Shown in pieces: positions 22,596 to 41,161 of a DNA stretch of 64,000 nucleotides. Below the pieces are notes generated by a model. The model saw only the letters and a list, made by a program, of their open reading frames with translations. It made no database searches and was not told where the DNA came from. Each line of letters begins with the position of its first letter. The stretch's first letter is position 1. The stretch lies in the NCBI GenBank assembly GCA_029688905.1, contig JARULB010000001.1, positions 434,001 to 498,000 of the forward strand, given 5' to 3'. Source of the DNA: Balneolales bacterium ANBcel1. Lineage in GTDB: Bacteria > Bacteroidota > Rhodothermia > Balneolales > Natronogracilivirgulaceae. A program made the translations under genes and the position numbers.

Positions 22596-24383
22596 TCAGG
22601 ATCCCGGCCGGGTTCGTTCTTTCTTGAGTTTTTGCTGGTAGCTTTTCTTCCAATCCGCCTTAAGCTGCCGGGATTGCTCCAACGTGGACGCGTTCTGCAT
22701 GGCCTTCGCCAGCTCCTTCATCTCATCCATTGAATGCAATCGAACGGCCTGCTTAACCGAAGGAATCAGCCGTGGAGTCATACTCAGCTCATTCACACCA
22801 AGTCCGATAAGCACAAGCGCAGCAAACGGATCCGAAGAAAGCTCACCGCATACAGCCACTGGCTTGTCGTGTTTAGTTCCGGCTTCCACGCTCATGGCAA
22901 TGAAGGTAAGCACCGCCGGATGAAGCGGCTGGTAAAGCGAGGAAATAAGGTTGTTTCCACGGTCAACAGCAAGCGTATACTGGGTCAGGTCGTTGGTACC
23001 GATGCTCAGAAAATCGGCGTGTTGGGCGAACAGATCGGCAAGCAGCGCCACACTCGGAACCTCCACCATCACCCCGAGCTGTATGTGATTGTCGACAGGC
23101 ACTCCCTTCTTCTGCACCCGCTCCTGGGTTTCGTCCAGAACGTGTTTCACTTCGAGAAACTCATCCAGTGTCGAAATCATGGGCACAAGAATACGCGTCC
23201 GACCCGGATACTGTCCGGCCACCCGGCAGATAGCCTCCAGCTGACTCCGCAGCAGCTCTTTGCGATCCAGCAGAATACGAATTCCACGCCAACCCAGAAA
23301 AGGATTGGCCTCCCTGGTCTTGATATCAAGAACCTTGTCTCCACCCACATCCAGCAGGCGAATGGTAACCGGCGACGAGCCGCTGCCCGAATAGGCGGTC
23401 TGGCAAAACTCTTCCTGCCGCTTCCGGTCCATGGTAACGGGTCCTGCGTTCATCAGCAGTGTGTCGGTGCGAAGCAGTCCGATTCCTTCGGCCCGGTACT
23501 TCTCGATATTCAGCACCTCATCTTCGAAATCGATATTGGCCTGCAGGGTCACTTTATGTCCACATAGGGTTTCCGCCGGCTTGTCGACAACGTGCCGAAG
23601 CTGCTTTTCCTCCTCCTTGTGACGCTTGATCGCCCGGATGTAGAGGCCGGCCGTCTCCTCATCCGGCCTCAGGATGGCATTTTTGTTATATCCATCGAGA
23701 ATAACCGTGTCGCCGTCCCGGATCTGTCGGGTTGCCGTTTTCGTATCAATGAGCATGGGGATGCCCATGGCGTTGGCGATAATCGAGGCATGCGATGTGA
23801 GTCCGCCTGCATTGCAGATAATCCCTTTCACTCCGTTCCGGGCGAAGGTCACCACTTCCAGCGGCGTCACTTCCGCCGTTACCATCACCGTATCCTTTCC
23901 GAAGCTGGCGATAACGGCAAGCTGCTGAATATTGCGCACCAGCCGGTCGCGGACATCCCGCAAATCCGAGAGGCGTGAAACCAGAAACGATTTGTCAGAT
24001 GACTTGATCAGGTCGATGTATTGCTGAAAAGAGTCATAGACCGCTTTTTCGGCCCTCATATTCTGGTTATCTATCAGACCGTTGACAGAAGTGATCAGGT
24101 CGGGATCCTGTAAAATCTGAAGTTGCGCATTGAGGATGTCCCTGGTCTGCTGATCCTCCCGCGAATCCGCAAAATCCGTGAGGCGTTTCACCTCGACCGA
24201 AACGCTCTGTCTGGCCTGTTCAAACTTGCGAATTTCTTCGGGCTTCTGATCCTCCTCAATCGGCTCGGCGTCAATATTAATATTCCCCTTGGAATAGAGC
24301 CTGGCAACTCCCATCACCAGACCCGAAACTGCCGTAAGCCCGTTTATTTTTTCGTTGGATTCATAAGATCGTTGATCTTCCAT
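22596..24383 (-). CDS. ptsI: PTS enzyme I (PEP-protein phosphotransferase)
   Basis: Transfers phosphate from PEP to HPr. The phosphohistidine segment is GGLTSHASIIANAMGIPMLI. The PEP-binding barrel has LLRTDTLLMN, RLLDVGGDK, FLGWRGIRILLDR, LGVMVEVPSVALL, SIGTNDLTQYTLAVDR and the Cys-containing VAVCGELSSDP. The frame has a GTG at 24404 and an ATG at 24383; the ATG is preferred (595 aa), close to where homology begins. ptsH lies just upstream, 5-26 bp away. No EIIA/B/C gene, HPr kinase or sugar transporter is adjacent, so the pair may serve regulation or a distant EII. Confidence 0.93.
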   Translation of the reverse strand: MEDQRSYESNEKINGLTAVSGLVMGVARLYSKGNINIDAEPIEEDQKPEEIRKFEQARQSVSVEVKRLTDFADSREDQQTRDILNAQLQILQDPDLITSVNGLIDNQNMRAEKAVYDSFQQYIDLIKSSDKSFLVSRLSDLRDVRDRLVRNIQQLAVIASFGKDTVMVTAEVTPLEVVTFARNGVKGIICNAGGLTSHASIIANAMGIPMLIDTKTATRQIRDGDTVILDGYNKNAILRPDEETAGLYIRAIKRHKEEEKQLRHVVDKPAETLCGHKVTLQANIDFEDEVLNIEKYRAEGIGLLRTDTLLMNAGPVTMDRKRQEEFCQTAYSGSGSSPVTIRLLDVGGDKVLDIKTREANPFLGWRGIRILLDRKELLRSQLEAICRVAGQYPGRTRILVPMISTLDEFLEVKHVLDETQERVQKKGVPVDNHIQLGVMVEVPSVALLADLFAQHADFLSIGTNDLTQYTLAVDRGNNLISSLYQPLHPAVLTFIAMSVEAGTKHDKPVAVCGELSSDPFAALVLIGLGVNELSMTPRLIPSVKQAVRLHSMDEMKELAKAMQNASTLEQSRQLKADWKKSYQQKLKKERTRPGS

Positions 24384-24409
24384 AGCGTCCGCTTTGCGGT
24401 TCACGGTTT

Positions 24410-24679
24410 CTATTCTTCAACCTTGAAGCCATTGTTAAACAAGGTAACCATCGCCTCCATCGCCTGCTCTTCATCGGGGCCGTCCATCTCCAGTTCCAGT
24501 TCGGCACCCTGCTCTGCCGCGAGTGTCAGTAACCCCAAAATACTTTTGCCGTTAATACGATATCCATACATATGTATGTGAAAATCCGACTTGAACCGGG
24601 TAATTTCCTGAACTATGACCGATGCCGGACGTGCGTGTATACCCGCCGGATTTTTCACCGTTACCGTTTTTTTTATCAT
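24410..24679 (-). CDS. ptsH: Phosphocarrier protein HPr
   Basis: An 89-aa HPr. The active-site motif NPAGIHARPAS carries the phosphoryl His at about residue 15. NGKSILGLLTLAAEQG holds the Ser near position 46-47 that HPr kinase phosphorylates in some bacteria. It is the first gene of a ptsH-ptsI unit transcribed away from gatC. Whether the Ser is regulatory here depends on an HPr kinase elsewhere. Confidence 0.94.
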   Translation of the reverse strand: MIKKTVTVKNPAGIHARPASVIVQEITRFKSDFHIHMYGYRINGKSILGLLTLAAEQGAELELEMDGPDEEQAMEAMVTLFNNGFKVEE

Positions 24680-24805
24680 TTATTACATTCTGCCTTGCCG
24701 TGTTATTGTTTCTGCATCCCCGGGGATGCGCTCAAAGTTACACTTTGCCTGCACTTTTTGTAACTTCGAATTCTGTAATCAATAAACAAAAAAAAAATTA
24801 TCAAT

Positions 24806-25093
24806 ATGTCTGTTTCTCTGGATGATGTTAAATATATGGCAAATCTTGCCCGACTTCAGCTTTCAGATTCTGAAGCCCGTTCCCTGTTGAAGGACATGAA
24901 CGATATTCTGGGGTATATGGATCACCTGGGCAAAATCGACTCCTCCGATGTTCCCCCGCTGGAACACGTCACAGACGAAAAAACCGGCTTCCGGCCCGAC
25001 CGGGCTCTGCCGCCCCTGGATCACGAACTGGCACTCAAAAATGCACCCGATGCCGACACGGACCACTTTCGTGTACCCAAGGTGATCGATTGA
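24806..25093 (+). CDS. gatC: Asp/Glu-tRNA amidotransferase subunit C
   Basis: A 95-aa small subunit of GatCAB, which converts Glu-tRNA(Gln) or Asp-tRNA(Asn) to the amide form. Family features are VKYMANLARLQLSDSEARSL, DMNDILGYMDHLGKIDSSDV and the extended C-terminal part with RPDRALPPL and the final FRVPKVID. gatA and gatB are not in the window. It diverges from ptsH over a 126-bp promoter region. Confidence 0.94.
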   Translation: MSVSLDDVKYMANLARLQLSDSEARSLLKDMNDILGYMDHLGKIDSSDVPPLEHVTDEKTGFRPDRALPPLDHELALKNAPDADTDHFRVPKVID

Positions 25094-25275
25094 GAATTGT
25101 TCGCACGAAGCCGAGAGGCTTGTCCGCTGCTGACGGTGCAGCCATCTGACCCACCTGTTCGGTGCCTTAAAGGTGGTGCCCGTTGGATGCAAGCTGCCGC
25201 ATCGGCGCCTTCAGCCATCAACCCTTCTCCCTGTTTCCAATTCACGCAGATCCCTCCAACCCACCTCAGCCTCAA

Positions 25276-27825
25276 ATGACCCAGAAAAGTCGCGAGCCAA
25301 AGCCGGATAAAAAAGCCTCCCGCCGATCACGCAGAAATCTGAAACCTGCCGAAAGCATCCACGATTACTGGGAATCGCTCCCCCTGAAATACCGGCACCT
25401 GATTGTGCTGCTGTTTCTGTTCATCGCACCCTCGTTCCTGTTCAGCGAAGTCTATTTCGGCGGCCGGCAGTTCGTCGCCCACGATATCGAACAGTTCCGC
25501 GCCACGGCCCAGTCCGTTATCGAGTACCGCGAGGAAACCGGCGAAAACGCCCTTTGGGCCACCAATATCTTCAGCGGAATGCCCTCCTACACCGTCATCG
25601 GCACCAAGGCGGTCTATCACATCGACACCCTGCTCAGACGGACCTTCAACTCCCTGTTCATCCCCGTTTTCCCGTTTATGATCTGTGCCGGAGGGGTCTA
25701 TTTCTTTTTCTGGCTGATGGGGTACCGGCCGCTGCCCTCGGCACTCGCCGCCCTGGCGATTACGCTGACAACCTACATCCCCATCATTGTGGGGGCAGGC
25801 CACAACTCCAAACTGATCGCCTATTCCTTTATTCCATGGGTGATGGCCGGTTACTGGATGCTGTCACGAAGTGACCGAAAACTGGCCGGGCTCTTCCTCT
25901 TTGCCATCGCGCTCAATTTCACGCTGCGTGCGGAACATGTCCAGGTGCTGTACTATTTCCTGTTTGTCCTGCTCATCTGGTTTGTATACGACGGATTCAC
26001 TGCATGGAAAGAGCAGGTCTGGCCGGCCTGGCTTCGTCGCGCTTCCCTGATGGTACTCGGAGGCCTGCTCGCCCTGGCCGCCAACATCCAGCCGTACTGG
26101 AGCCTGTACGAGTATTCCGCGCACAGCATCCGGGGCGGTTCGGAGATGCGAAGCGAGATGGCTGGCCGTGACGGTCTCGATGTCGACTATGCTTTCGCCT
26201 GGTCGCAGGGCCGGGGCGAGTTGCTTACCCTCATCATACCGGCAAGTTACGGAGGATCCTCGGCGGAAGGCACGTACTGGGGACCAAAATCGTTTACCAG
26301 CGGTCCGCATTACCTCGGCGCCATCGTCTTTCTGATGTTTCTGGTTGGACTGATGAGAGCTCCCGGACGACTCAAATATGTTTTTCTGGGCTCCGGAGGC
26401 CTCGCGCTGCTTTTCTCTCTCGGCGAGAACCTGTACCGCTTTAACTATCTGGCGTTTCAATACCTGCCCTTTTTCGACAAATTTCGCACCCCGGAAATGT
26501 GGCTGATTGTGACGGTCTTCAGCTTTGCCGTCATAGCCGCCATGGGCATGAAATGGTTTCACGACTCCTGGAAAGACGGCTCTCTTACCCTCAAACAGCT
26601 CTATCTGCCCGCAGGGACGGCCCTGGTCATCGCACTCTTCTTTACCGCTTTTTCCGGAACCATCCTCAATTTCGAAAAACCGGGCGAGCACCGCCAGCTG
26701 GCACAGCAGGTCGCCTCACAGCAAAATGTCTCCCCGGACGATCCCCAGGTCCGCCAGTTTGTCAACCGCTACATCGACCAGGAAATCAAGCCCGAACGCC
26801 GGGAGATGGCGGCCTCCGACAGCCGGCGCCTGCTGCTGTACCTCGTGCTGGCATCCGGGCTGCTTGCCGCCACCGCGCGTTTCAACCTGCCGGCCAACTA
26901 TGCGCTTGCAGGTCTCGTACTACTCACAGCCGTTGACCTGGTGCAGGTCGGCGGCCGATATGCCGACAAAAGCGGCCTCGTCCCTTCCGACATGTCGGCC
27001 TATGACGTAATCAACAACAAGGTGCGTTCCGTGGACCGGTTCATTGAGGAGAACAAGCAAGTGGATCAGGCCTGGCCGTGGCGGACACTCCCGCTCTCCG
27101 ACAATCCGTTCAACAACGCCGTACCGGCGGCTTTTGTCTATCCCTCCATCGGCGGCTATTCGGGGGCGAAACTGAGCATTTATCAGGATGTGCTGGACCA
27201 CGCCCTGTATACTGGTCAGGCCGGACTGAACACCGAGCTGCTCAACATGCTCAACACCCGCTTCCTGATCTTCTCCAACCCCATCTCCCTGCCGGGCTGG
27301 GAGGTCGCATACGAAGGACGTGAGGGGGTGGTCATGGAGAACCGGAACGCCCTGCCCAAAGCCTGGTTCGTCGATGAGCTGCTCACCGAAGACCGGCCGG
27401 AGGATGTGATGGCGCAACTCAATCGCTTTGACGCCTCCTCTACTGCCATACTTCTGGCCGATGGCCGCTCCGGCGCGGATGCCGTCCCCGACATCACCCC
27501 TATCGATAACCGAAGCGCCGAGGTAACCGAATACGGTCCGCGGCAGATCCGGCTGCACGTCGAAACCGATGCCCCGTCGTTTCTGGTGATGAGCGAGATC
27601 TACTACCCGGCCGGGTGGTATGCAACGCTGAACGATGAGCCTGTCACAATTCGTCGCACCAACTACATCCTGCGCGGATTTGAAATCCCGCCGGGGCAGC
27701 ATGAGCTTGAGCTTCGCTTCGAGCCCCGCTCCCACATCCTGGGAAGCCGCCTCTCCTGGGTCTTCAACATCGCTATTCTGCTGATCGGTGTCGCCGCACT
27801 CGGCCTTTGGTACCGGAAATCATGA
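25276..27825 (+). CDS. YfhO-family membrane protein
   Basis: An 849-aa polytopic protein. After a basic N-terminal stretch (REPKPDKKASRRSRRN) come about a dozen membrane spans, starting near residue 42. The periplasmic-side loop VAHDIEQFRATAQSVIEYR and IFSGMPSYT match the YfhO family, whose Bacillus and Listeria members glycosylate teichoic acids and which has a GT-C-like fold. A soluble C-terminal domain with beta strands (FLVMSEIYYPAGWYATLNDE) precedes a last span. The frame opens at 25183 but MTQKSREPK at 25276 fits the homology start. The next gene overlaps its stop (ATGA), making this the head of the glycan cluster. Confidence 0.85.
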   Translation: MTQKSREPKPDKKASRRSRRNLKPAESIHDYWESLPLKYRHLIVLLFLFIAPSFLFSEVYFGGRQFVAHDIEQFRATAQSVIEYREETGENALWATNIFSGMPSYTVIGTKAVYHIDTLLRRTFNSLFIPVFPFMICAGGVYFFFWLMGYRPLPSALAALAITLTTYIPIIVGAGHNSKLIAYSFIPWVMAGYWMLSRSDRKLAGLFLFAIALNFTLRAEHVQVLYYFLFVLLIWFVYDGFTAWKEQVWPAWLRRASLMVLGGLLALAANIQPYWSLYEYSAHSIRGGSEMRSEMAGRDGLDVDYAFAWSQGRGELLTLIIPASYGGSSAEGTYWGPKSFTSGPHYLGAIVFLMFLVGLMRAPGRLKYVFLGSGGLALLFSLGENLYRFNYLAFQYLPFFDKFRTPEMWLIVTVFSFAVIAAMGMKWFHDSWKDGSLTLKQLYLPAGTALVIALFFTAFSGTILNFEKPGEHRQLAQQVASQQNVSPDDPQVRQFVNRYIDQEIKPERREMAASDSRRLLLYLVLASGLLAATARFNLPANYALAGLVLLTAVDLVQVGGRYADKSGLVPSDMSAYDVINNKVRSVDRFIEENKQVDQAWPWRTLPLSDNPFNNAVPAAFVYPSIGGYSGAKLSIYQDVLDHALYTGQAGLNTELLNMLNTRFLIFSNPISLPGWEVAYEGREGVVMENRNALPKAWFVDELLTEDRPEDVMAQLNRFDASSTAILLADGRSGADAVPDITPIDNRSAEVTEYGPRQIRLHVETDAPSFLVMSEIYYPAGWYATLNDEPVTIRRTNYILRGFEIPPGQHELELRFEPRSHILGSRLSWVFNIAILLIGVAALGLWYRKS

Positions 27826-29267
27826 CCCCGGCCAAGGACATATCACCACCTACCCATCCACAAAAACAGGAGACGTCCCCCGACGTACTGATTATCACAT
27901 ACTACTGGCCGCCCAGCGGGGGAGCAGGTGTTCAGCGTTTTTTGAAATTCGTGAAATACTTCCGGGAATTCGGCGTCAACCCGATCGTCCTCACCTGCGC
28001 CAACCCGACCTATCCGATCACGGATCACACTTTGGCCGACGATATTCCGGAGGATGTTGCGGTCTTCCGGGCCCGGTCGATTGAGCCTTTCCGGATCTAC
28101 AGCCTGTTCACCGGCACCACACCGGAGAAAGCGGCCAATCCATCCACCGTACTCGGCTCCGGCAAACTCGGACCGGCCTCCAGGCTGGTACGCTGGATCC
28201 GGGCCAATGTGTTCGTTCCCGATGCCCGGCTCGGATGGCTTCCCTTCGCCAAGCGCCGGGCGCTCCGGCTTGTAAAAGAATACGACATCACTACTGTCAT
28301 CACCACGGGGCCGCCCCACTCCACCCATTTTGCAGGAAAATGGCTTCGCCGGAAGGCCGGGGTTCGCTGGATCGCCGATTTCCGGGATCCATGGACCGAC
28401 ATTCACTATAACCGGATGCTGCCAAGAACCGCCTGGATCCGAAGCCGGGACGAACGGCTGGAACGCTCCGTCTTAAACAGCGCGGATGAAGTAACCGTGA
28501 CCGCTCCAGGCACTGCCCGCTATTTTCAGCAGAAAGTGAGCCGTACCTATCACACCATCACCAATGGTTTTGATCCCGATGACTTTGCGGACGCTCCCGC
28601 TGAAAAAGGTGCACCCCGGCCTGTCCGCCAGGACTCCGCCGCATCCGCCGCATCCGCCGCGTCCGCCGCGTCCGCCGCGTCCGATAAACAGACCGTCGCG
28701 GATCCGTTTGTGATACGGCATGTCGGCACCATATCGGAATCATCCGTTCCTTCCCGCCTGCTGGAGGCGCTCGCACAACTGCCCGCAACCCCATACCGGA
28801 TGGAATTTATCGGACCGGTACATGCCGAGCTTGAAAGGCAGATCGCCGATCTCGGGCTGGATGACCGGGTCGCCATCCTCCCTCATGTTCCGCACAGGGA
28901 AGCCACGGCACTGATGCAGCACGCCGACCTGAATGTGGTAGTGGTGCAGCGATCGGATGACAGCCGGATTCTGATTCCCGGAAAACTGTACGATTATCTC
29001 GCGGCAGGCAAACCCGTCCTGGCCATCGGTCCGGTGGACGGCGATACCGCCTCGATCATCCGGGATTGCCGGATCGGGAAAACCTTCGATTATGACGATG
29101 CGGACGGGCCCGGGCAATGGATCCGCACACTGCAGCAGGAAAAACAAAACCCGGGAAGGAACCCTTCGTTTAGCCCGGATGAGCATGCCATCGCACGGTA
29201 CTCACGAAAGGAGCTCACCCGCGCGCTTTGCAACATCATCCATCCACCAAAAAACGTCCAATCATAA
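27822..29267 (+). CDS. Glycosyltransferase family 4
   Basis: A 481-aa cytoplasmic GT-B glycosyltransferase. The N-terminal domain has YYWPPSGGAGVQRFLKFVKY, and the family's central block WIADFRDPWTDIHYNRM is present. The C-terminal nucleotide-sugar domain includes DSRILIPGKLYDYLAAGKPVL. Between the two lies an Ala/Ser linker made by a 9-bp DNA repeat (SAA repeated five times). The ATG at 27822 overlaps the YfhO-like stop, and this fits better than the TTG at 27807. The donor and acceptor are unknown; the context suggests a surface polysaccharide. Confidence 0.88.
   Translation: MTPAKDISPPTHPQKQETSPDVLIITYYWPPSGGAGVQRFLKFVKYFREFGVNPIVLTCANPTYPITDHTLADDIPEDVAVFRARSIEPFRIYSLFTGTTPEKAANPSTVLGSGKLGPASRLVRWIRANVFVPDARLGWLPFAKRRALRLVKEYDITTVITTGPPHSTHFAGKWLRRKAGVRWIADFRDPWTDIHYNRMLPRTAWIRSRDERLERSVLNSADEVTVTAPGTARYFQQKVSRTYHTITNGFDPDDFADAPAEKGAPRPVRQDSAASAASAASAASAASDKQTVADPFVIRHVGTISESSVPSRLLEALAQLPATPYRMEFIGPVHAELERQIADLGLDDRVAILPHVPHREATALMQHADLNVVVVQRSDDSRILIPGKLYDYLAAGKPVLAIGPVDGDTASIIRDCRIGKTFDYDDADGPGQWIRTLQQEKQNPGRNPSFSPDEHAIARYSRKELTRALCNIIHPPKNVQS
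28635..28682 (+). repeat. 9-bp in-frame tandem repeat in the GT4 gene
   Basis: Five copies of TCCGCCGCR run from 28635 to 28679, then a partial TCC. They encode Ser-Ala-Ala repeats in the linker between the two glycosyltransferase lobes. Because the unit is a multiple of three, slippage would change linker length without a frameshift. Confidence 0.85.
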
Positions 29268-29345
29268 CCGGCCAAACCCGAATCAAACATCATCACCCGC
29301 CTGTGACACTCACTGAAATTTCGTGTAGTTCATCGGCAATTTGTT

Positions 29346-32066
29346 ATGACTTATTCTGTACCCGCCATTGTATTTCCCGTTCTTTTTCTGATCGGCAGCT
29401 CTGCAGCCACGTTCGCGTCCGATACGATACCTCCGAACGGGCCGAATCACCCCGAAAAAAATCGGCAGACCGAATCCCCACCGCTTTTCCTCAATGAGAT
29501 CATGGCCTCCAACGGTTCTTCCATTGAGGATGAAGACGGCGACAGCTCCGACTGGATCGAACTGTACTACGACGGGGAGGAACCTCTCTCCCTGCACTAT
29601 GTCGGCCTCACCGACGACCCCTCCAAACGATTTCAGTGGATGTTCCCGGACACCGTCATCCACCCGGGAGAATACCTGCTTGTTTGGGCTTCCGGCAAGG
29701 ACCGTGCGACTCCGGGCGAACCCCTGCACACCAATTTCAGAATCGCGCAGGATGGGGAGGATATCATGCTTTCCCACCCGGTCGAAGGGTTGCTGGATCA
29801 TTTCGAGGCTCGGAGAATCCCGACCGATATTTCGGCCGGCAGAGTGCCCGACGGCTACGGGGACTGGTTCTTTTTCAATCTGCCCACCCCCGGACGCAGC
29901 AACGAAACCCCTGCCTTCGAAGGCATCACCGAACCCGCACTCTTCTCCCACGAAGCCGGATTCTACACAGAAGATTTTCAGCTGGAGGTGGTCCCCAGGG
30001 ACACAAACAGCACTATCCATTTTACACTGGACGGCTCCCGCCCAACCAGCAACTCACCGGTTTTTGACGGTCCGCTGACCGTCCACGACCGATCCGGCGA
30101 AGCCAATGTTTTTTCCACCATTCGCACCAGTGCCAGAACGTTCGACTGGCGGCAATGGCACGAGCCCGACGGTCCCGTTGCCAAGGCTACCATAATCAGA
30201 ACCGTCACCCTCAGGGAAAACCACCTGCCGGTTTATGACAAGCGAACCTACTTTGTGATGAGTGAGGGCGCGGACCGTTATGAGGTGCCGGTAATCTCCA
30301 TCACCACCGACAGCCTGAATCTGTTCGACTACCGTACGGGCATCTACATCCCGGGCATTCACCGCTCGGGGGGCGGTACGGGCAATGAGTTTCAGCGCGG
30401 AAGCGCATGGGAGCGCGAAGCGACTATGGAGTACTTCGATGAAACCGGGGAGCGTGTCCTTCACCAGGATATCGGAATCCGGATACACGGCGGCTTTTCC
30501 CGCGAACTGGCCCAGAAAAGCCTCCGGCTCTATGCGCGTAACGAATATGGCGACAACCGTTTCCGTCATCGCTTCTTCCCCGACCTGGAAGACAGCGTCT
30601 TCAACCGGCTGATTCTTCGCAATGCGGGCAATACCTGGGGCGAGGATATGTTCATGGACGCCGCGGCCCAGTCGCTGGTCAGGCACTTCAACATGGATAC
30701 CCAGGCATACCAGCCGGCCGTGCTTTTCCTGAACGGGGAATACTGGGGAATACACAACATCCGCGAACGCTACGACAAACACTACCTGGAGCGGGTTTAC
30801 GGGATCGATCCGGAGAATATCGATCTGCTGACAAGAGACTGGCAGGTCAAGGAAGGTGACTCGCTCCACTATGTTCAGATGCTGGATTTTGTGCGATCCG
30901 CCGATTTGGGTGATGACGAGGCGATGGCGAAGCTCTCGACCATGATCGACCTGGATAACCTGCTCGATTATTACAGTGCACAGATCTATTTCGGAAACAA
31001 TGACTGGCCCCACAACAACATCGACTTCTGGAGGTCACGCGTGGCCTATGACCCCGATGCGGATCCCGGGCACGACGGACGCTGGCGCTGGCTGATGTTC
31101 GACGTGGACCGTTCGCTGGGGCATGCTACCGGTCCGGAGTTCGACATGATCGCCTGGATGATGCAGCCCGTCATCCGGGAGGAAACCTGGCCCACCGAGC
31201 TTTTTTTGAATCTGATGGAGAACGAGCAGTTCGTCGGAGATTTCATCAACCGGATTGCGGATCATCTCAATACCGCATTCCGCTGCGAACGTGTGGAGCA
31301 GGTCATAGACAGTCTGAAATCCCCCGTAGCCGGCCTCATCGGCGAACATATCCATCGATGGAGCCTTCCCGAGAGTGTCCATGCATGGGAAGGATACGTC
31401 CAGGAGATGTATCGTTACGCCTGCCAACGTCCCGCCTACCTCCGGGATCACCTCAGGGAACATTTCGATATTCCGGATATGCACGTGCTGCGCCTGGAGA
31501 ATTTGGATAGCGGTCATGGCCATATCATCGTAAACAGCATTCCGGTTGCCGGCGATATCCCGGGAATTGCCGATGATCCGGAGGAATGGGCCGGTATCTA
31601 TTTTGACGGCATCCCCATAGAGGTTGCCGCGAGCCCCCGGGACGGGATGCTGTTTGAGGGATGGGTGATCAACGGCGAGTTATCCCCGGTCACCGACACC
31701 CTCATCACCCTTCTCCCGGAAGAGGATCTGCACATTGAGGCGCTGTTTTCGGAACCGACTTCCGCCGACCCCGGCCCGCAGCCCAATCAGATCGCACTGC
31801 ACCAAAACTATCCGAACCCGTTCAACCCTTCCACGACAATCTCTTACGAGCTTTCGGAAAGCAGCGAAGTCCAGCTTGAGGTGTACGACATTCTCGGGCA
31901 AAGGGTGGCGCTGCTGACCGACGAAATACGCAGCGCAGGGACGCATTCCGTCAACTGGGACGCCTCCGGCCTTGCCAGCGGTGTTTACATCATGCAGCTC
32001 ACCGTTTCGGGAGTAGAAGGCGCCGCTGAAGAACAGCACACCGGAAAAATGACGCTGGTCAGATAA
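29346..32066 (+). CDS. Secreted CotH-kinase protein with lamin-tail and T9SS sorting domains
   Basis: A 906-aa T9SS cargo protein. A signal peptide covers residues 1-25. A lamin-tail domain starts near 40 (LFLNEIMASNGSSIEDEDGD), and a chitobiase-type beta module near 205-240 (IHFTLDGSRPTSNS). The CotH-like kinase domain has HGGFSRELAQKSLRLYARNE near 381, YWGIHNIRERYDKHYL, YFGNNDWPHNNIDFW and GRWRWLMFDVDRSLG near 578. The C-terminal sorting domain begins LHQNYPNPFNPSTTI near 818. Bacillus CotH phosphorylates spore-coat proteins; the target here is unknown. It lies between GT4 and the asparagine-synthase-like gene, only 29 bp before the latter, so it belongs to the glycan transcript. Confidence 0.88.
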   Translation: MTYSVPAIVFPVLFLIGSSAATFASDTIPPNGPNHPEKNRQTESPPLFLNEIMASNGSSIEDEDGDSSDWIELYYDGEEPLSLHYVGLTDDPSKRFQWMFPDTVIHPGEYLLVWASGKDRATPGEPLHTNFRIAQDGEDIMLSHPVEGLLDHFEARRIPTDISAGRVPDGYGDWFFFNLPTPGRSNETPAFEGITEPALFSHEAGFYTEDFQLEVVPRDTNSTIHFTLDGSRPTSNSPVFDGPLTVHDRSGEANVFSTIRTSARTFDWRQWHEPDGPVAKATIIRTVTLRENHLPVYDKRTYFVMSEGADRYEVPVISITTDSLNLFDYRTGIYIPGIHRSGGGTGNEFQRGSAWEREATMEYFDETGERVLHQDIGIRIHGGFSRELAQKSLRLYARNEYGDNRFRHRFFPDLEDSVFNRLILRNAGNTWGEDMFMDAAAQSLVRHFNMDTQAYQPAVLFLNGEYWGIHNIRERYDKHYLERVYGIDPENIDLLTRDWQVKEGDSLHYVQMLDFVRSADLGDDEAMAKLSTMIDLDNLLDYYSAQIYFGNNDWPHNNIDFWRSRVAYDPDADPGHDGRWRWLMFDVDRSLGHATGPEFDMIAWMMQPVIREETWPTELFLNLMENEQFVGDFINRIADHLNTAFRCERVEQVIDSLKSPVAGLIGEHIHRWSLPESVHAWEGYVQEMYRYACQRPAYLRDHLREHFDIPDMHVLRLENLDSGHGHIIVNSIPVAGDIPGIADDPEEWAGIYFDGIPIEVAASPRDGMLFEGWVINGELSPVTDTLITLLPEEDLHIEALFSEPTSADPGPQPNQIALHQNYPNPFNPSTTISYELSESSEVQLEVYDILGQRVALLTDEIRSAGTHSVNWDASGLASGVYIMQLTVSGVEGAAEEQHTGKMTLVR

Positions 32067-32095
32067 CCGCAACCTGCAGATAACCCGCCTGCCCC

Positions 32096-33832
32096 ATGAA
32101 GGTTCATATCATTCTTGACGATTCGGCCCGATGGAACCACGAAACAGGTCAACAGCCGCAAAGCCGGGTCTGGTGCCGGTCGGAAGGCGGGCGCGATTCC
32201 GGCCTGACCGGAAAAGTCCGTCGGATTGCGGATGATGACGAGGCAGCGGACCTGTGCAATGGGCTGAAGGGACGATTTGCCTGGATCCGGGAGATGCAGG
32301 ATATCCAGCATCCGGGCGCAAAGGCACAAGTGCGCATTGCCGTCGACTTTCATCGTTCCATTCCCCTTTTCTACGCTATCAACGGCCGGGATGTCTACAT
32401 TGGCGATCAGCCCGACCTCATCCGCCGAAGCCTTCCGGGTTCGGAACCTGACCGTGGGACGGCATCGGAATATCTGGTCCTTGGGTACCTGACCGGATCG
32501 GACACCTTGTTCCGGGGGATCAAACAGGTGGAAGCCGGATCCATCGTGACCATAACAGACGGGGATGATGGGCCGGCAGCCGAAACCACCGGCTATTTCA
32601 CATACCGACACCATTACCGGAATGCGGACCGGAACACCTTGCTCAAGGATCTCGATGATGTGGCTTTACAAACGATGCAGCGGTCCATTGACCATGCGGA
32701 CGGCAGGCCGGTCATTCTCCCCCTCAGCGGCGGCCATGATTCCCGCCTGATCGCCCTTCTGCTTCACCGGCTCAACTACCGGGATGTCATCTGCTATTCC
32801 TATGGCAAGCAGGGGAGTCCGGAAATGAAGCTGAGCCGGGAGATTGCGGAGGCCCTGGGTTACCGGTGGATCGGCGTACCCTATACCCGGAAAAAATGGC
32901 GTGACTGGTTCAACCGGCCGGAACGCAAGAGATATTACAAGAAAGCGGCGCGGCCGGCCGGTATCCCGAATATCCAGGAATGGGTTGCCGTCGGTGAGCT
33001 GAGATCCGGCGGCACCGTACCCGACGACAGCCTGTTCATGTCGGGCCACTTTGGCGACGCCCTGGTCGGGGGCAAGGGGATCTACGACACCTACACCTAT
33101 CGGGAACACCCTGAAACCCATCCGGATACGATTCTTCGCCACATCTTCCACTACCATTACTATCTCTGGGACTGGTCCGCTTACCGGGATGTTCTGGAGC
33201 CTTTTTTCCGGGATCGTATCCTCCGGTTGCTGCAGCCGATCGATGCCTATCCCGACAGCCCCAGCGCATGCGAAGCCTGGAATATCCGTGAACGGCAATC
33301 CAAGTTCATTATCAACAGCGGGCGTATCTACGATTTTTTCGGCTACGATTGGCTGATGCCCTACTGTGACCCGGACTACATGCGGTTCTGGCTGGAAATC
33401 CCGCTTGCCTTCCGACACGACAAAAACCTCTATACCAGCTACATCGACCGGCTTTCGCCCTTCAACACTCCCACCCACAACCCGGGCAAGGCGATCATCG
33501 CCGTGAGGGAGACTATCCGGAAAACCCCTCTTTTCCGGCCGTCGCGAGCCCTGTACAACAAATGGGCCGCCCGAAGGCGCCGTAAAAAAGAGTACGAAAC
33601 CCATCCGATGGCCTGGTACGGAATGATGAGGGAAACCGATTTCAGAAAACTGTACACCGGCAGTGAAAACATCAATTCGTTTCAGTCACTGGAATTGCTG
33701 CGCACGATATTTGAAAACGGTTATCTTTCTGTGGATGACATCCTGCACCAAAGCTATAAAGCCCTTGCCAGGAGTCCTTTGAAGCAACCGGACGGTGAAC
33801 GGCCGTCCGACGATTCCCGAATACCTTCATGA
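32096..33832 (+). CDS. Asparagine-synthase-like amidotransferase protein
   Basis: A 578-aa protein with the C-terminal ATP-pyrophosphatase domain of AsnB (PP-loop ILPLSGGHDSRLIALLLHRL near residue 208). A degenerate N-terminal glutaminase-like domain begins MKVHIILDDS; the N-terminal nucleophilic Cys2 of true glutamine-hydrolysing enzymes is absent. Such AsnB-like proteins are frequent in polysaccharide and secondary-metabolite clusters, where they may amidate sugars or act on other carboxylates with free ammonia. Its stop overlaps the next gene start by 4 bp. The exact reaction is unknown. Confidence 0.85.
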   Translation: MKVHIILDDSARWNHETGQQPQSRVWCRSEGGRDSGLTGKVRRIADDDEAADLCNGLKGRFAWIREMQDIQHPGAKAQVRIAVDFHRSIPLFYAINGRDVYIGDQPDLIRRSLPGSEPDRGTASEYLVLGYLTGSDTLFRGIKQVEAGSIVTITDGDDGPAAETTGYFTYRHHYRNADRNTLLKDLDDVALQTMQRSIDHADGRPVILPLSGGHDSRLIALLLHRLNYRDVICYSYGKQGSPEMKLSREIAEALGYRWIGVPYTRKKWRDWFNRPERKRYYKKAARPAGIPNIQEWVAVGELRSGGTVPDDSLFMSGHFGDALVGGKGIYDTYTYREHPETHPDTILRHIFHYHYYLWDWSAYRDVLEPFFRDRILRLLQPIDAYPDSPSACEAWNIRERQSKFIINSGRIYDFFGYDWLMPYCDPDYMRFWLEIPLAFRHDKNLYTSYIDRLSPFNTPTHNPGKAIIAVRETIRKTPLFRPSRALYNKWAARRRRKKEYETHPMAWYGMMRETDFRKLYTGSENINSFQSLELLRTIFENGYLSVDDILHQSYKALARSPLKQPDGERPSDDSRIPS

Positions 33833-34710
33833 AATACCTCATTATCACACCGGCCTTCAATGAAGCCGGCAACATCGCCGGATTCATCCGGTCGGTTGCG
33901 GCTCAGACCCGCAAGCCGGTGGAGCTGGTTATCGTTAATGACAACTCGACGGACGACACCCTCGCCGTTGCCGAAGAAGCGGCCGGCGGGCACTCCTGGA
34001 TCCGCGTGGTCAACCGCCGGTCGCGGCCGGAACATATCACCGGATCGAAAGTGGCCGAAGCTTTCCTCTACGGAATAGCGCAAATAACAGATCCTTTGCC
34101 TGATGTGATAGTGAAGCTGGACGCCGACCTGGTGCTGCCCCCCCATTATTTCGAAACTGTCCTGCGACAGTTTGAACAAAACCCCAAAACCGGCATTTGC
34201 GGCGGGGTCTGTGCCATCCGTAAGGGAGAGCTTCTCAAGCCGGAAATCCTGACCGACCGCTTTCATGTGCGGGGAGCGCTTAAGGCGTATCGAAGAGAAT
34301 GTTACGAACAGATCGGCGGCATTCGTCCGGTGTACGGCTGGGATACCCTTGACGAGCTGCTGGCGGCCTGCCATGGTTGGGATACGGTGGTACTGCCCGA
34401 TCTCTGTGTGGAGCACCGGGCGCCCACCGGTAACCGGACCCGCTCCCTGAAGCTCCATATGATGACCGGCGAGCTGTTCTACCGGCTCGGTTACGGACCG
34501 GTTATTTCGCTGCTCGCCTCGGCCAAGCGCTGCACCATGCACCCCTTCGGCATTTCAGCACTTATCAGCTGGATTGGTTACCTTTGGGCTTCACTCGGCA
34601 GGCCTTCCCGGTATGTTGACCGCTCACAGGCAAAATGTATCCGCCGGCTTCGGTACCGCCGCATTCTGAAAAAAATCACCGGTTCCACCCCAACGCACGG
34701 AAGCACGTAA
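33829..34710 (+). CDS. Glycosyltransferase family 2
   Basis: A 293-aa GT-A glycosyltransferase. It opens YLIITPAFNEAGNIAGFIRS, has VIVNDNSTDDT, and the metal-binding DxD-type VIVKLDADLVLP near residue 92. FHVRGALKAYRRECYEQIGG and YGWDTLDELLA follow, the latter with the acidic catalytic pair position. A short hydrophobic C-terminal segment (ALISWIGYLWASLG) may anchor it. Translationally coupled to the asparagine-synthase-like gene by ATGA, and 7 bp from the flippase. Confidence 0.9.
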   Translation: MKYLIITPAFNEAGNIAGFIRSVAAQTRKPVELVIVNDNSTDDTLAVAEEAAGGHSWIRVVNRRSRPEHITGSKVAEAFLYGIAQITDPLPDVIVKLDADLVLPPHYFETVLRQFEQNPKTGICGGVCAIRKGELLKPEILTDRFHVRGALKAYRRECYEQIGGIRPVYGWDTLDELLAACHGWDTVVLPDLCVEHRAPTGNRTRSLKLHMMTGELFYRLGYGPVISLLASAKRCTMHPFGISALISWIGYLWASLGRPSRYVDRSQAKCIRRLRYRRILKKITGSTPTHGST

Positions 34711-34717
34711 CCATACA

Positions 34718-36199
34718 ATGGGCATCATCCTGCGACAAAGTTTCACCAACACCATCTACTCCTTCATTGGAGCCGCGATCGGTTTTGTCAATGTCATATG
34801 GCTGTTTCCCTTTGTGCTGGAAGCCGGGCAGTTCGGTCTCACGCGCATCCTCGTCTCCATCAGCATCATCGGCACCCAGGTGGCCAGCCTGGGGATGGGA
34901 AATATCACTTTGCGGTTTTTCCCGCAATTCCGCGACCAGGGCAGGCAGCACCACGGGTTCCTGCTGGTTGCCGTTACCGTGCCGCTGATCGGGTTTCTGC
35001 TGCTGTCGCTGGCCGGTTGGCTGTTTCAGTCGCCGATAATCCGGTTCTATGCCGACGACAGCGCCCTGTTCGGCGACTACTATTTTCTGCTCTTCCCGCT
35101 GCTTTTTTTCATGCTCTACTTTCACATCCTGGAGAGCTACATCCGCTCCCTGTACGACACGGTGGTGGCCACTTTTTTCCAGGACGTGCTGCTCCGTCTG
35201 CTTCAAACAGCGGCAGTACTCTTCTACTTCTTCAATCTGGTCAGTTTCGGGACCTTTATGTGGCTCTTTGTGCTAACCTACGCTCTTCAGGCGCTGTTGC
35301 TGCTCCTTTATACCGGCCTGCAAAGGCAGCTTTACCTCAAGCCCGATCTCCGGGCGTTCACCCGGGAGCGCATACGCAGCATGGGCAGCTATGGTGCCTA
35401 TGCACTGCTGGGAAGTGTCGCCGCCATGGCTCTTGGTAACATCGACATGATAATGGTCGGCGGCATGACCACCCTGGCCGAGACCGCTGTCTATGCCGTG
35501 AGCTTCTATCTTGCCACACTTATAAAAATCCCTTCGCGGAACCTGCTCAAGATCTCGCAGCCCGTCATCGCAGAAGCGCATTACAATAACGACCTGGATA
35601 CCATCTCGCAGATTTACAGAAAAAGCTCGATCAATCAGCTGCTGGTGGGCGGTACCCTCTTCCTCCTGATCTGGGCGAACATTGACCACATCTTCCGTTT
35701 TCTCCCGGACGAGTACCATGCCGGCATCCCCGTGTTCCTGTTTATCGGCCTGTCGAAAATGATAGATATGACCTCCGGGTTCAATGCCGCCATTATCCGA
35801 ACCTCAAAATGGTACCGGTTCGATCTCTATGCGACCGTGCTTCTGGTGCTGCTAACCGTCATCACCAACCTGATTTTCATCCCGCTGTACGGAATCACCG
35901 GGGCGGCAATGGCAACCGTGCTTTCGGTATTTATTCATAACGCGACCTGCTTTCTGTACATACGATACCGCTTCGGCATTCAGCCCTTCAGCCGGAAAAC
36001 CGCCGGTGCGCTTCTCCTGCTGCTTCTGGCCCTGGCAGCGGCTACCCTGCTGCCCGCTGCCGGGTTCTGGGTACTTGACTTCGCTATTCGCACACTCGTC
36101 ACAACAGCGTTCATCCTGTTTGGAATCGTGCTGTTCCGTCTCTCTTCCGATCTTGAAGAGCTCATTCGTGCCGTCCATGCCCGAATTTTCAAAAAATAG
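34718..36199 (+). CDS. Polysaccharide flippase (Wzx/MATE-like)
   Basis: A 493-aa protein with about 14 membrane spans of the MVF/Wzx superfamily. It starts with the family pattern RQSFTNTIYSFIGAAIGFVN and includes LGMGNITLRFFPQFRDQG and LGNIDMIMVGGMTTLAETAVY. It should flip an undecaprenyl-linked glycan made by the neighbouring glycosyltransferases across the inner membrane. It is the last gene of the cluster; no Wzy polymerase or initiating transferase is seen between 25 and 36 kb, so either these lie elsewhere or the YfhO-like protein fills a role. Confidence 0.87.
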   Translation: MGIILRQSFTNTIYSFIGAAIGFVNVIWLFPFVLEAGQFGLTRILVSISIIGTQVASLGMGNITLRFFPQFRDQGRQHHGFLLVAVTVPLIGFLLLSLAGWLFQSPIIRFYADDSALFGDYYFLLFPLLFFMLYFHILESYIRSLYDTVVATFFQDVLLRLLQTAAVLFYFFNLVSFGTFMWLFVLTYALQALLLLLYTGLQRQLYLKPDLRAFTRERIRSMGSYGAYALLGSVAAMALGNIDMIMVGGMTTLAETAVYAVSFYLATLIKIPSRNLLKISQPVIAEAHYNNDLDTISQIYRKSSINQLLVGGTLFLLIWANIDHIFRFLPDEYHAGIPVFLFIGLSKMIDMTSGFNAAIIRTSKWYRFDLYATVLLVLLTVITNLIFIPLYGITGAAMATVLSVFIHNATCFLYIRYRFGIQPFSRKTAGALLLLLLALAAATLLPAAGFWVLDFAIRTLVTTAFILFGIVLFRLSSDLEELIRAVHARIFKK

Positions 36200-36335
36200 C
36201 ATTTGAGAAACCTGCCGCAGAAAGCATAACCGGAAGAAATCGGAGGCAAGATGGAAAACAGCCGGGATACTCTTATCTTTCCTGCCGGTTCCCCGGACGG
36301 GGTTTTGCGATCGTATTCACAATTTTCAGCTATCC

Positions 36336-37595
36336 ATGAGCAAACAAACCTTCAGCACGCACCACGGAATGGCGGATCTGCTGCCCGGAGAAATCGAGCA
36401 GTGGCAGGCGCTTGAATCCATTATCAGGGAGACGGCCCGGCGATTTCACTTCCAGGAGATCCGTACACCGGTACTGGAGCAGACCGAACTGATTGCCAGG
36501 GGAGTGGGCCAGCTCACCGACATCGTCAGCAAGGAGATGTTCGCCTTCGACCGCGGTGAGGACCGGTACGTGCTTCGGCCGGAAGGGACTGCTCCGGTTG
36601 CCAGGGCCTATGTACAGCATCACCTCTCCCAGCGCGGCGGACCGCAGCGTCTGTTCTACATCGGACCCTTCTTCCGTGCCGAGCGTCCACAGAAAGGGCG
36701 TCAGCGCCAATTTCATCAATTCGGAGCCGAACTCATCGGTGCTTCCGGCGCCATCGCCGACGCGGAAGTTATCGCCTTCATGATGGCCATATACCGGCAG
36801 ATCGGCATCCGAAATATCACCCTGAAACTGAATACCGTCGGTGACCCCGCCTCCCGCGATGCCTACCGCAAAGCGCTCGGCGACTACTTCCATCCGCTCC
36901 GCGACAAACTCAGTGACATTTCTGTGAAGCGGCTTGAGACCAACCCGATGCGCATCCTCGACTCCAAAGAGCCGGAAGACCAGCCGCTGAAAGCTGATGC
37001 GCCGAAAATCATCGATTATCTGAGCGAATCGTCACGGGCGCATTACGAGGCGGTCTGCGGCCATCTGAATCGCCTGGCCATTCCCTTTGAGCATGATCCG
37101 TTTCTGGTTCGCGGACTCGATTACTATACCGAAACCGCATTTGAACTGATCAGCCCCGACCTCGGTTCCCAGGACGCGCTCGGCGGCGGCGGACGCTATG
37201 ATCTGCTGATTGAAGAGATCGGCGGACTTCCCACACCTTCCGTCGGTTTTGCCTGTGGAATTGAGCGTCTGATGATCGCCTGCGAGGCTTTGGATATCCG
37301 GCTCGGTGAACCAGCCATACCCGATCTCTATTTTGTGACCCGCGGGGAGGCCGCCGCACAATGGGCGTTGGAACAGATGCCGGCATTGCGTGAGAAAGGG
37401 ATCGTTTGTACTATGGATTATTCCGGCCGCTCGCTGAAGGCGCAGATGAAAGACGCCAACCGCCAGCAGGCCCGGTTCGCCCTGATTGTCGGAGAGCAGG
37501 AGCTGGCGGATAACCGTTTCACCCTCCGCCATATGGCCGAAAGTACGGAACAAGCCGTTTCTCCCGAAAGTCTGGCCGATCACCTGATCTCCTGA
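36336..37595 (+). CDS. hisS: Histidyl-tRNA synthetase
   Basis: A 419-aa class II synthetase charging tRNA-His. Class II motif 2 region is RLFYIGPFFRAERPQKGRQRQ split around residue 110, and the histidine-specific motifs are VRGLDYYTETAFEL and LGGGGRYDLL. The anticodon-binding domain is C-terminal (FTLRHMAESTEQ). Length is normal. It stands alone, with 136 bp before and about 80 bp after. Confidence 0.96.
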   Translation: MSKQTFSTHHGMADLLPGEIEQWQALESIIRETARRFHFQEIRTPVLEQTELIARGVGQLTDIVSKEMFAFDRGEDRYVLRPEGTAPVARAYVQHHLSQRGGPQRLFYIGPFFRAERPQKGRQRQFHQFGAELIGASGAIADAEVIAFMMAIYRQIGIRNITLKLNTVGDPASRDAYRKALGDYFHPLRDKLSDISVKRLETNPMRILDSKEPEDQPLKADAPKIIDYLSESSRAHYEAVCGHLNRLAIPFEHDPFLVRGLDYYTETAFELISPDLGSQDALGGGGRYDLLIEEIGGLPTPSVGFACGIERLMIACEALDIRLGEPAIPDLYFVTRGEAAAQWALEQMPALREKGIVCTMDYSGRSLKAQMKDANRQQARFALIVGEQELADNRFTLRHMAESTEQAVSPESLADHLIS

Positions 37596-39310: not shown

Positions 39311-41161
39311 TCAATCCACCGGAATACTCTTTTTTTTCACTTTGCCGGTGCTCACTCCGTGCGATTCAAGGAAAGAGACAAGTCCCTCATCACCCATATA
39401 ACGTTTCAGGATATTCGGATCGGTTTTGGTCAGGTCAACCAGAATCAGCCCGTCCAGCACATCGCTGAACTCAGGATCCACATTAAAACCGAGCAACTTC
39501 CCGCCCAGTTTCAGGTACTGCTTGAGCAGAATCGGCACCCCCTTGTTATCGTCCTCGAACTCCGAAACCAGTTCGGAGACATCCTCCAGGCTTCGGATCA
39601 TGGTCCGGTTTTTGGTATCCAGCCCTTTCATCCGCCGGCCCCGGTATGGTGTCTTTGGCCGTACCTTTCTGGCCATATCCGGCAGATAATTGTGCAGCTT
39701 CAGAAACGTGACCATCAGGTGCCGAGACATGGAGTGATATTCGCTGCTGATGCTTACCGGTCCGAACAGCACTTTGTACTTGGGATATTTCACAACATAA
39801 TGGCCGATACCCTTCCAAAGCAGCATCAGCGGGGCGAAACTGCGCTGGTATTCCGGCCGGATGAACGAACGCCCCATCTCCAGCGCCGGACTGATCTGGT
39901 CAAACAGCGAGCTCTTTATGTTGAACAGTGTTGTGGTATAGAGCCCTTTCTTGCCGAACCGTTTGATGATGTTGTCGGTCCGTCCGATCCGGTAGGCTCC
40001 GACCAGTTCGCGCTTCTCCTTGTTCCAAACGAACAGGTGCACGTAATACTCATCGAATCCGTCCAGGTCAATCGCCTTGCCGGTCCCTTCGTGGGTTCCG
40101 CGGAACGTCACCTCCCGCAACCGGCCGATTTCACGCACAATATTCGGAATCTGCTTTTTAACCGCGTGGAAAACCTGAAACTCGCCGCTATCCAGCAGGC
40201 GCTGGGACGGTGCCAGGGCTCGAATTTCATCCTCAAGGTGTTCCACCGGAACAGGATCAATAATAGGTTCTACTTTCGACTCCGTTACCCGGACAGGTTC
40301 GGGAGTCTCGTCCTCCGTTTCACGTCCGCTGCGATTCTGCAGCATGGAGGTTCTTTGCCGCAGATAGTGGGTCATTTCCACATCACTCTCAAACGATTTG
40401 AGTTTGTTGTAGCTGATGACCTTCCCGATGCAAATGTCGATGTCGCGGTCTTTCTTGTTCACGAATTCGGTGGGCAGCATGGCGGTGCGAAGGCGCGGGT
40501 GGATGAGGCCCAGCATTTGAAACAGCGGTCCGTTTCTGCCGTCAAAAAAGACCGGCAATACCGGCGCTTCCGTTTTCCGGATGATACCTGCGATGGATTT
40601 ACTCCACTGTGGTTCAACAATTTTTCGCTTGCTCATGGAGAAGTGCGCCACTTCACCGGCGGGAAAAACCCCCAGTACGTGATCGTCACGCAGCCACTGC
40701 ATGGACTCCTTCATCGATTTGAGATTGGCCCTGGCGGCATCCCTTCCACCGAACGGATCCACAAAAAAGAACACTTCCCGCAATTCGGGAATACGTTCCA
40801 GAATGTAGTTGGCCATAATTTTGGAATCGCTGCGAACAGAGCGCAGCAGTGAGGCCAGAATCACCCCTTCAATTCCGCCGAACGGATGATTGGCCACAAC
40901 GACAACTTTGCCCTCCTTCGGAATACGCTCCATATCCCTCGGTGAGACATGGTAGTTGACATTCATGCGTTCCAGAAGTCTGTCATAGAACGGCAGATTC
41001 GTGTCATATTCCAGGGCATCGTAGTAAATCCTGTTCAGTCCGCCGAAAGCGAGCATCGCTTCGAGCGGCTTTCGGGCAACCTTGAACAGACTGTTGCGCA
41101 CCGGACCTTCGATTTCAAAATCAAGGTTGAAAATATTACTTTCGTTATCTTTAGTACCCAT
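39311..41161 (-). CDS. OlsF-like fused acyltransferase (aminolipid synthesis)
   Basis: A 616-aa two-domain protein. The N-terminal PlsC-like domain has ANHPFGGIEG at residues 90-99 (acyltransferase His92) and GVFPAGEVAHFS near 165. The C-terminal half is a GNAT-like N-acyltransferase of the OlsB/hemolysin-associated type: FDEYYVHLFVWNKEKRELVG, YRIGRTDNI, LEMGRSFIRPEYQRSFAPLM, LFGPVSIS. This order matches OlsF, described in Serratia and Flavobacterium, which makes ornithine-type lipids in one polypeptide. An acidic linker lies near 285-305. It diverges from clpS over 256 bp. Confidence 0.84.
   Translation of the reverse strand: MGTKDNESNIFNLDFEIEGPVRNSLFKVARKPLEAMLAFGGLNRIYYDALEYDTNLPFYDRLLERMNVNYHVSPRDMERIPKEGKVVVVANHPFGGIEGVILASLLRSVRSDSKIMANYILERIPELREVFFFVDPFGGRDAARANLKSMKESMQWLRDDHVLGVFPAGEVAHFSMSKRKIVEPQWSKSIAGIIRKTEAPVLPVFFDGRNGPLFQMLGLIHPRLRTAMLPTEFVNKKDRDIDICIGKVISYNKLKSFESDVEMTHYLRQRTSMLQNRSGRETEDETPEPVRVTESKVEPIIDPVPVEHLEDEIRALAPSQRLLDSGEFQVFHAVKKQIPNIVREIGRLREVTFRGTHEGTGKAIDLDGFDEYYVHLFVWNKEKRELVGAYRIGRTDNIIKRFGKKGLYTTTLFNIKSSLFDQISPALEMGRSFIRPEYQRSFAPLMLLWKGIGHYVVKYPKYKVLFGPVSISSEYHSMSRHLMVTFLKLHNYLPDMARKVRPKTPYRGRRMKGLDTKNRTMIRSLEDVSELVSEFEDDNKGVPILLKQYLKLGGKLLGFNVDPEFSDVLDGLILVDLTKTDPNILKRYMGDEGLVSFLESHGVSTGKVKKKSIPVD

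Follow-up and report, generated by a model that had tools for sequence, protein, structure and literature searches.

Gene organization of the locus

The window, that is, the whole 64-kb stretch of DNA analyzed here, carries a gene for a CotH-type protein that is inserted among genes of a putative glycan assembly locus. Hereafter, the stretch between the GT4 glycosyltransferase gene and the flippase gene wzx is referred to as the slot, and the CotH encoded in it as the slot CotH. The genes and features of the region are as follows.

24806..25093, plus strand: gatC, first gene of the conserved block, adjoining yfhO in relatives (TIGR00135, 82.7 bits)
25183..27825, plus strand: YfhO-type membrane protein, a presumed GT-C glycosyltransferase (PF09586, 33.6 bits, C-terminal part)
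27807..29267, plus strand: GT4 glycosyltransferase, upstream border of the slot, adjoining yfhO in relatives (four Pfam glycosyltransferase models)
29346..32066, plus strand: slot CotH with T9SS tail, 906 aa (PF08757 and TIGR04183)
31002..31004, plus strand: codon of Asp553 (NNDWPHNN); the residue aligns to the NFD aspartate in B. cereus CotH and, by spacing, to B. subtilis D228
31101..31103, plus strand: codon of Asp586 (FDVDRSLG); the residue aligns to the first WDYD aspartate in B. cereus CotH and, by spacing, to B. subtilis D251
31809..32009, plus strand: T9SS type A sorting domain, residues 822-888 (PF18962 and TIGR04183)
32096..33832, plus strand: AsnB-like enzyme with PP-loop SGGHDS (PF00733, 36.4 bits)
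33829..34710, plus strand: GT2 glycosyltransferase (PF00535, 80.4 bits)
34718..36199, plus strand: Wzx-type flippase, downstream border of the slot (PF01943, 21.6 bits, under the cut-off of 28.2)
36336..37595, plus strand: hisS, right anchor of the locus (TIGR00442, 467 bits)

The coordinates agree with the original prediction in that the CotH-type gene lies between the GT4 gene and the gene for the AsnB-like enzyme, 29 bp before the latter (32067-32095), and in the close succession of the genes that follow, with a 4-bp overlap between the AsnB-like and GT2 genes and 7 bp between GT2 and wzx. The gene had been described as the third of its type but, by coordinate, it is the first of the three CotH domains inside the window; the source genome contains nine. 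Upstream, yfhO and the GT4 gene overlap by 19 bp (TTG start), and the gap between GT4 and CotH (29268-29345) measures 78 bp in the source genome (G000), 31 bp in G017, 46 bp in G013, 47 bp in G014, 10 bp in G018, and about 103 bp in G010, with gene starts picked by hand. Downstream, wzx and hisS are 136 bp apart. A scan of 24300-36500 listed no plus-strand terminator-like site between 27580 and 33183, and its lone plus-strand promoter-like site lies before gatC (24652-24679); the scan is weak, since shuffled sequence gives on average 6.1 promoter-like and 12.5 terminator-like sites where 4 and 22 were counted, and promoters of Bacteroidota type fall outside its model. We infer that the slot CotH is co-transcribed with the glycan genes.

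Among the flanking proteins, YfhO is 39-73% identical to its orthologues in the compared loci, and a Wzx match at E<=1e-60 is found in 88 of 128 genomes of the order. A cysteine at residue 2 is the glutaminase nucleophile of AsnB; the AsnB-like enzyme of the window has no cysteine at this position, according to a comparison of N-termini and PP-loops in seven sequences, and no Pfam match to a glutaminase domain was obtained for it. Within the GT4 gene, at 28635-28683, a 9-bp unit is repeated 5.4 times in frame, giving a Ser-Ala-Ala repeat that could differ in length among strains. Beyond hisS, an acyltransferase and GNAT (Acetyltransf_5) protein is encoded on the minus strand (39311-41161), and is conserved next to the locus in the family.

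Predicted export of the slot CotH

The protein starts with a hydrophobic N-terminus that resembles a signal peptide, as judged by eye. It is followed by a weak LTD match (31.2, below the Pfam cut-off of 34.3), a CHB_HEX/Fn3-like region (CHB_HEX_C_1 and Fn3_assoc, both over the Pfam cut-off), the CotH kinase domain (PF08757, residues 378-699, 160.8 bits against a Pfam cut-off of 23.8), and a T9SS type A tail. The tail scores 41.4 bits with TIGR04183 (NCBIfam cut-off 23) and 41.5 bits with PF18962, Por_Secre_tail (Pfam cut-off 27). Two components of the T9SS machinery, SprA at 1582 bits and the sortase PorU at 1018 bits over its parts, are encoded in the source genome, together with dozens of T9SS-tailed proteins; a sortase model that includes the tail gives 43 matches, two of which are PorU itself. 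The slot CotH is probably secreted by the T9SS, and would reside at the cell surface.

The tail and the presence of PorU are also compatible with CotH being the recipient of the glycan, as had been proposed alongside its role as a modifying enzyme. The glycan of the locus would be attached to CotH through D[ST] motifs that are O-glycosylated in the periplasm, or would form part of the CotH anchor, and co-expression would explain the placement of the gene. The five slot CotHs compared contain 26 D[ST][AILVMT] motifs where about 15 are expected, against 150 and about 150 in 46 other CotHs, and motif positions 102, 322, and 655 are common to all five. However, this excess is not an independent count, since the five sequences are related, and positions 322 and 655 recur in at least one of the two non-slot sequences aligned with them, which leaves 102 as the only one of the three missing from both. 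Moreover, N[ST] motifs, the control, are likewise elevated, 1.69-fold in slot CotHs and 1.53-fold in the others, and the presumed cytoplasmic GT2 shows an excess (3 against 0.58, P 0.016) as strong as that of the window CotH (7 against 3.06, P 0.032). Dozens of other T9SS-tailed proteins in the genome need no gene in this locus. The O-glycosylation motif excess may thus be taken as a weak and confounded hint, and we consider it unlikely that CotH serves as a carrier of the glycan.

A related arrangement is known from P. gingivalis where, according to the available part of PMC7468200, the C-termini of T9SS cargo are joined to the linking sugar of A-LPS, amidated by the AsnB-like WbpS. This would favor a cargo role for CotH, and the Wbp/Vim system, in which an AsnB-like enzyme adjoins wzx and a surface glycan is linked to T9SS cargo, has likenesses to the present locus. 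It differs in that no CotH is described for it in that part of the publication, and in the AsnB-like enzyme itself, which here does not have Cys at position 2 and scores no more than 22.4 bits with the WbpS-type model, eps_aminotran_1 (TIGR03108), against a cut-off of 816.9; WbpS and WbqG are assigned to this family in that publication. The assignment of the AsnB-like enzyme as a WbpS-type uronamide synthase was rejected on this score, which also counts against the attachment of the glycan to CotH.

Predicted kinase fold and key aspartates

Residues 201-705 of the slot CotH were modeled on a 73-row alignment with a pLDDT of 95.3; an earlier model from seven sequences was poor (pLDDT 46) and was set aside. 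The best solved structures for the model are those of B. cereus CotH, 5jd9 (Z 30.5, rmsd 2.2 with 326 residues aligned) and 5jda (Z 30.3). After the CotH entries, the next rows of the fold search are PI4K (Z 11.8); these, together with PI3K, HipA, and similar rows, were dismissed as reflecting the general kinase-like fold (best Z 11.8 against 30.5 for CotH). Asp553 and Asp586 are invariant in all 73 sequences of the alignment. The corresponding NFD and WDYD aspartates of 5jd9 have a spacing of 23 residues, equal to that between D228 and D251 of B. subtilis CotH (counted by hand), whose D228Q and D251A forms are catalytically inactive as stated in the portion of PMC7821199 at hand. The slot CotH is comparable to Bacillus CotH (B. 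cereus and B. subtilis) in the fold of the kinase domain and in both aspartates. The Bacillus protein is a protein kinase of the spore coat that acts on CotB and CotG (same portion of PMC7821199), unlike the glycan-locus setting of the slot CotH, and the solved 5jd9 chain, of 359 residues, is without the T9SS tail and the accessory domains. By homology and modeling, the slot CotH appears to be a CotH-family kinase with its key aspartates intact, and is predicted to be active.

The accessory CHB_HEX_C_1 and Fn3-like domains and the weak LTD match would also suit a non-catalytic surface adhesin or glycan-binding protein, in which these domains and the CotH fold hold the glycan. ATP is scarce at the cell surface and outside the cell, which would again fit a protein of this kind. 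Nevertheless, the aspartates needed in B. subtilis CotH are those found to be invariant in the 73 sequences, and a binding role would not require them. A purely structural function for the slot CotH is, in our view, very unlikely.

A variable slot in a conserved locus

The gatC-yfhO-GT4 ... wzx-hisS block recurs across the order and the stretch between GT4 and wzx varies, so that the slot CotH sits in the variable part of a locus that is conserved as gatC-yfhO-GT4-[slot]-wzx-hisS. We tested 34 proteins of this locus in relatives that are not orthologues of window proteins, a selection from the open frames. Twenty-five of them are of glycan type: 8 methyltransferases (4 slightly below the Pfam cut-off), 7 glycosyltransferases (2 on the opposite strand), 4 sulfotransferases, and 2 each of pyruvyltransferases, epimerases, and flippases. 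The remaining nine, some of which sit outside the GT4-wzx stretch proper, comprise a gamma-glutamyltranspeptidase, a nitroreductase, FrhB-like, FKBP, PhzF-like, and DUF7033 proteins, and three without a match. In G018, a gamma-glutamyltranspeptidase gene lies on the minus strand between wzx and hisS (L065:770-2473). The slot is predominantly occupied by glycan-tailoring enzymes, among which an exported CotH fits as one acting after export. When the window and 54 loci were searched with the T9SS-tail profile (E<=0.01), the only matches within GT4-wzx slots were CotHs; the others were CotHs elsewhere and one T9SS-tailed protein upstream of a GT4 homologue (L168). Among 20 Wzx loci from the phylum (2 from the order), 6 contain both yfhO and GT4 homologues (1 from the order). 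In three phylum Wzx loci of one family, yfhO, GT4, and wzx are consecutive, with the GT4 and wzx matches 26-60 bp apart, which corresponds to an empty slot.

Within the family, 20 genomes were searched, and the position after GT4 could be assessed in 14. In the other six (G005, G007, G011, G015, G016, G019), the locus meets a contig end, is rearranged, or lacks a GT4 match at the cut-off used. A CotH follows GT4 directly in 6 of the 14, from four genera (G000, G017, G010, G013, G014, G018); in G017 and G018 two contigs each carry a part of the gene, whose continuity is inferred. It is missing in the other eight (G012, G006, G002, G004, G008, G009, G001, G003), the absence in G006 being read from one of two versions of the locus, as the other stops at AsnB. 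In this bin, the AsnB-GT2-Wzx part is present in two versions (L061 and L063), perhaps from two strains. Outside the family, none of 11 loci has a CotH in the slot; eight of these have GT4 and wzx (G092, G093, G090, G089, G041, G027, G111, G102), one stops before wzx (G119), and two are without a GT4 match (G028, G123).

The slot CotHs form a single lineage. Of the six, five were of sufficient length for a tree of 51 CotH segments, where a branch with SH-aLRT 100 separates them from the 46 others; none of 500 shuffles scored as low for this grouping. Over the common segment, the slot sequences are 66-75% identical to the window CotH and 68 other sequences at most 56%. The splits {G010,G013} and {G000,G017} are common to the CotH tree and to the flank-gene tree cut to the five shared genomes. 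One CotH lineage at one position in six genomes rules out an insertion unique to this strain, which, if it also had its own promoter and terminators, had been named as fatal to the proposal. The unit YfhO-GT4-CotH-AsnB-GT2-Wzx, whose synteny had been proposed as a check, recurs as regards the position of CotH but is not fixed: in G014 AsnB is missing and GT2 comes directly after CotH, G018 has a methyltransferase between CotH and AsnB, and CotH itself is absent in the eight genomes listed above. As CotH holds its place while its neighbors change, its tie is probably to the locus rather than to AsnB. The slot CotH is under purifying selection as strong as that on its neighbors, with dN/dS values between G010 and G013 of 0.12 for CotH, 0.13 for AsnB, and 0.13 for GT2; dS in this pair is high (1.6-1.8), and the G000-G017 pair gave no computable value for CotH or GT2.

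These data bear on whether CotH is a mere passenger, which entered the slot once in the family ancestor and was kept by the conservation of the block, with a job unrelated to the glycan. Its absence from 8 of the 14 assessable genomes, the abundance of CotH paralogues in varied places of these genomes, and a block order that is conserved anyway all speak for it. Mapped on the 22-row flank-gene tree, the presence of CotH needs four changes (34 of 500 shuffles do equally well), and losses or slot exchange must have occurred. Against it, the slot turns over and yet CotH stays between GT4 and whatever comes next, selection on CotH matches that on its neighbors, and no copy of the slot lineage was found outside the slot, either among the matches listed or in the tree with its 46 other CotHs. 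We regard an unrelated function as doubtful.

Other CotH genes in the source genome

Six of the eight other CotHs, in five loci, were examined for their surroundings, and none of the 10 neighbors tested is a glycosyltransferase or a flippase; a CotH as such is thus no marker of glycan assembly. The neighbors include his genes, a phosphatase-like protein, VTC-DUF4956-HlyD, a GH16 glycosidase, and T9SS-tailed proteins. One of these loci (L193, G000:C3:225000-241000, minus strand) has the order VTC-DUF4956-HlyD-CotH followed by another T9SS-tailed protein, hence Pel-type partner genes, with no pel gene among the neighbors tested. The window also contains tandem CotH genes, the first (57806-61291) T9SS-tailed and the second (CotH match 62815-63780) running off the window; in the tree the two are closest to each other, at a great distance from the slot clade.

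Discussion

The conserved position, the single clade, the purifying selection, and the short intergenic distances support the linkage of a T9SS-tailed CotH to glycan assembly, which was part of the original prediction, and CotH may modify or anchor to the glycan; the suggestion that the glycan decorates this cargo fared less well, for the reasons given above. We propose, with a probability of roughly 40%, that the slot CotH is a T9SS-secreted kinase acting as an optional surface tailoring enzyme of the glycan made by the same operon. CotH would be expressed from an operon that assembles and tailors one surface glycan; once this glycan, or a protein bearing it, has reached the surface, CotH would phosphorylate it, being the surface counterpart of the methyl-, sulfo-, and pyruvyltransferases that fill the same slot in relatives. 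The substrate may be the glycan, a glycan-bearing protein, or another molecule. Several observations count against such a tailoring role. CotH is missing in 8 of 14 assessable family genomes and in all 11 outside loci, its presence on the flank-gene tree takes four changes, a number that 34 of 500 shuffles match, none of the tested neighbors of six other CotHs is a glycosyltransferase or flippase, the scarcity of ATP at the surface is unfavorable to a kinase, and the other slot enzymes are presumed to be cytoplasmic, so that an exported CotH is in odd company.

A more specific version, in which the slot CotH is an extracellular glycan kinase working at the outer membrane on the finished surface polysaccharide or O-glycan, as an interchangeable module for anionic decoration beside the sulfo- and pyruvyltransferases, is quite improbable. 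If true, it would be a bacterial parallel to the secretory glycan kinases.

A secreted CotH in a polysaccharide operon has a precedent, by analogy, in the Pel clusters. In streptococci, clostridia, and bifidobacteria, cotH is contiguous with pel clusters that also include a polyphosphate polymerase and DUF4956 (PMC7112168, from the text accessible to us). For S. intermedius, the accessible sections of PMC12345266 report that deletion of SIR_1594, a secreted CotH of the pel operon, lowers Pel on slot blots and more than halves aggregation in artificial sputum medium; the drop seen in aggregation buffer was slight, and for that condition significance is claimed only for a different mutant. The Gram-positive clusters, as far as these sources go, thus share with the slot locus a CotH gene contiguous with polysaccharide genes and, for SIR_1594, secretion. 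They differ in having Pel synthase, polyphosphate polymerase, and DUF4956 and no T9SS, in place of YfhO-GT4-Wzx. A Pel-type partner set (VTC and DUF4956) was considered for the slot CotH and discarded, its neighbors being GT4, the AsnB-like enzyme, GT2, and Wzx.

The architecture of the locus is similar to that of the Bacteroides LFG O-glycosylation locus, with a tRNA-synthetase gene, wzx, a variable middle, and conserved glycosyltransferases at the far end (PMC12871550, in part). The likeness is one of architecture alone: the synthetase gene is metG in LFG and hisS here, and the part of that publication consulted describes no CotH. An attempt to link the locus to LFG was unsuccessful: none of the 20 Wzx loci could be identified as LFG, and a crude motif-based screen of these loci for frames of class I synthetases yielded none. 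In the excerpts consulted from work on Zetaproteobacteria stalks, Sfz6 has a CotH domain and lies away from the stalk cluster in two genomes. Among the publications listed for CotH with type IX secretion or polysaccharide operons, we noted none that describes a T9SS CotH within a YfhO-GT4-Wzx locus, which is not proof of absence; the search joining CotH and type IX secretion matched work on fungal peptides, judged by its title.

Substrates of CotH kinases are named for spore coats only in the literature found (PMC7821199, in the portion cited above), and the role of the secreted Pel-operon CotH is left open in the sections of PMC12345266 available. A CotH lineage fixed in one slot of a glycan locus offers a concrete place for the search of a substrate, namely the glycan of the locus or the proteins that bear it, and the existence of relatives with and without the slot CotH makes the question testable by measuring the phosphate content of the glycan. 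Together with the Pel clusters, the slot CotH suggests that secreted CotH kinases may serve surface polysaccharides more widely.
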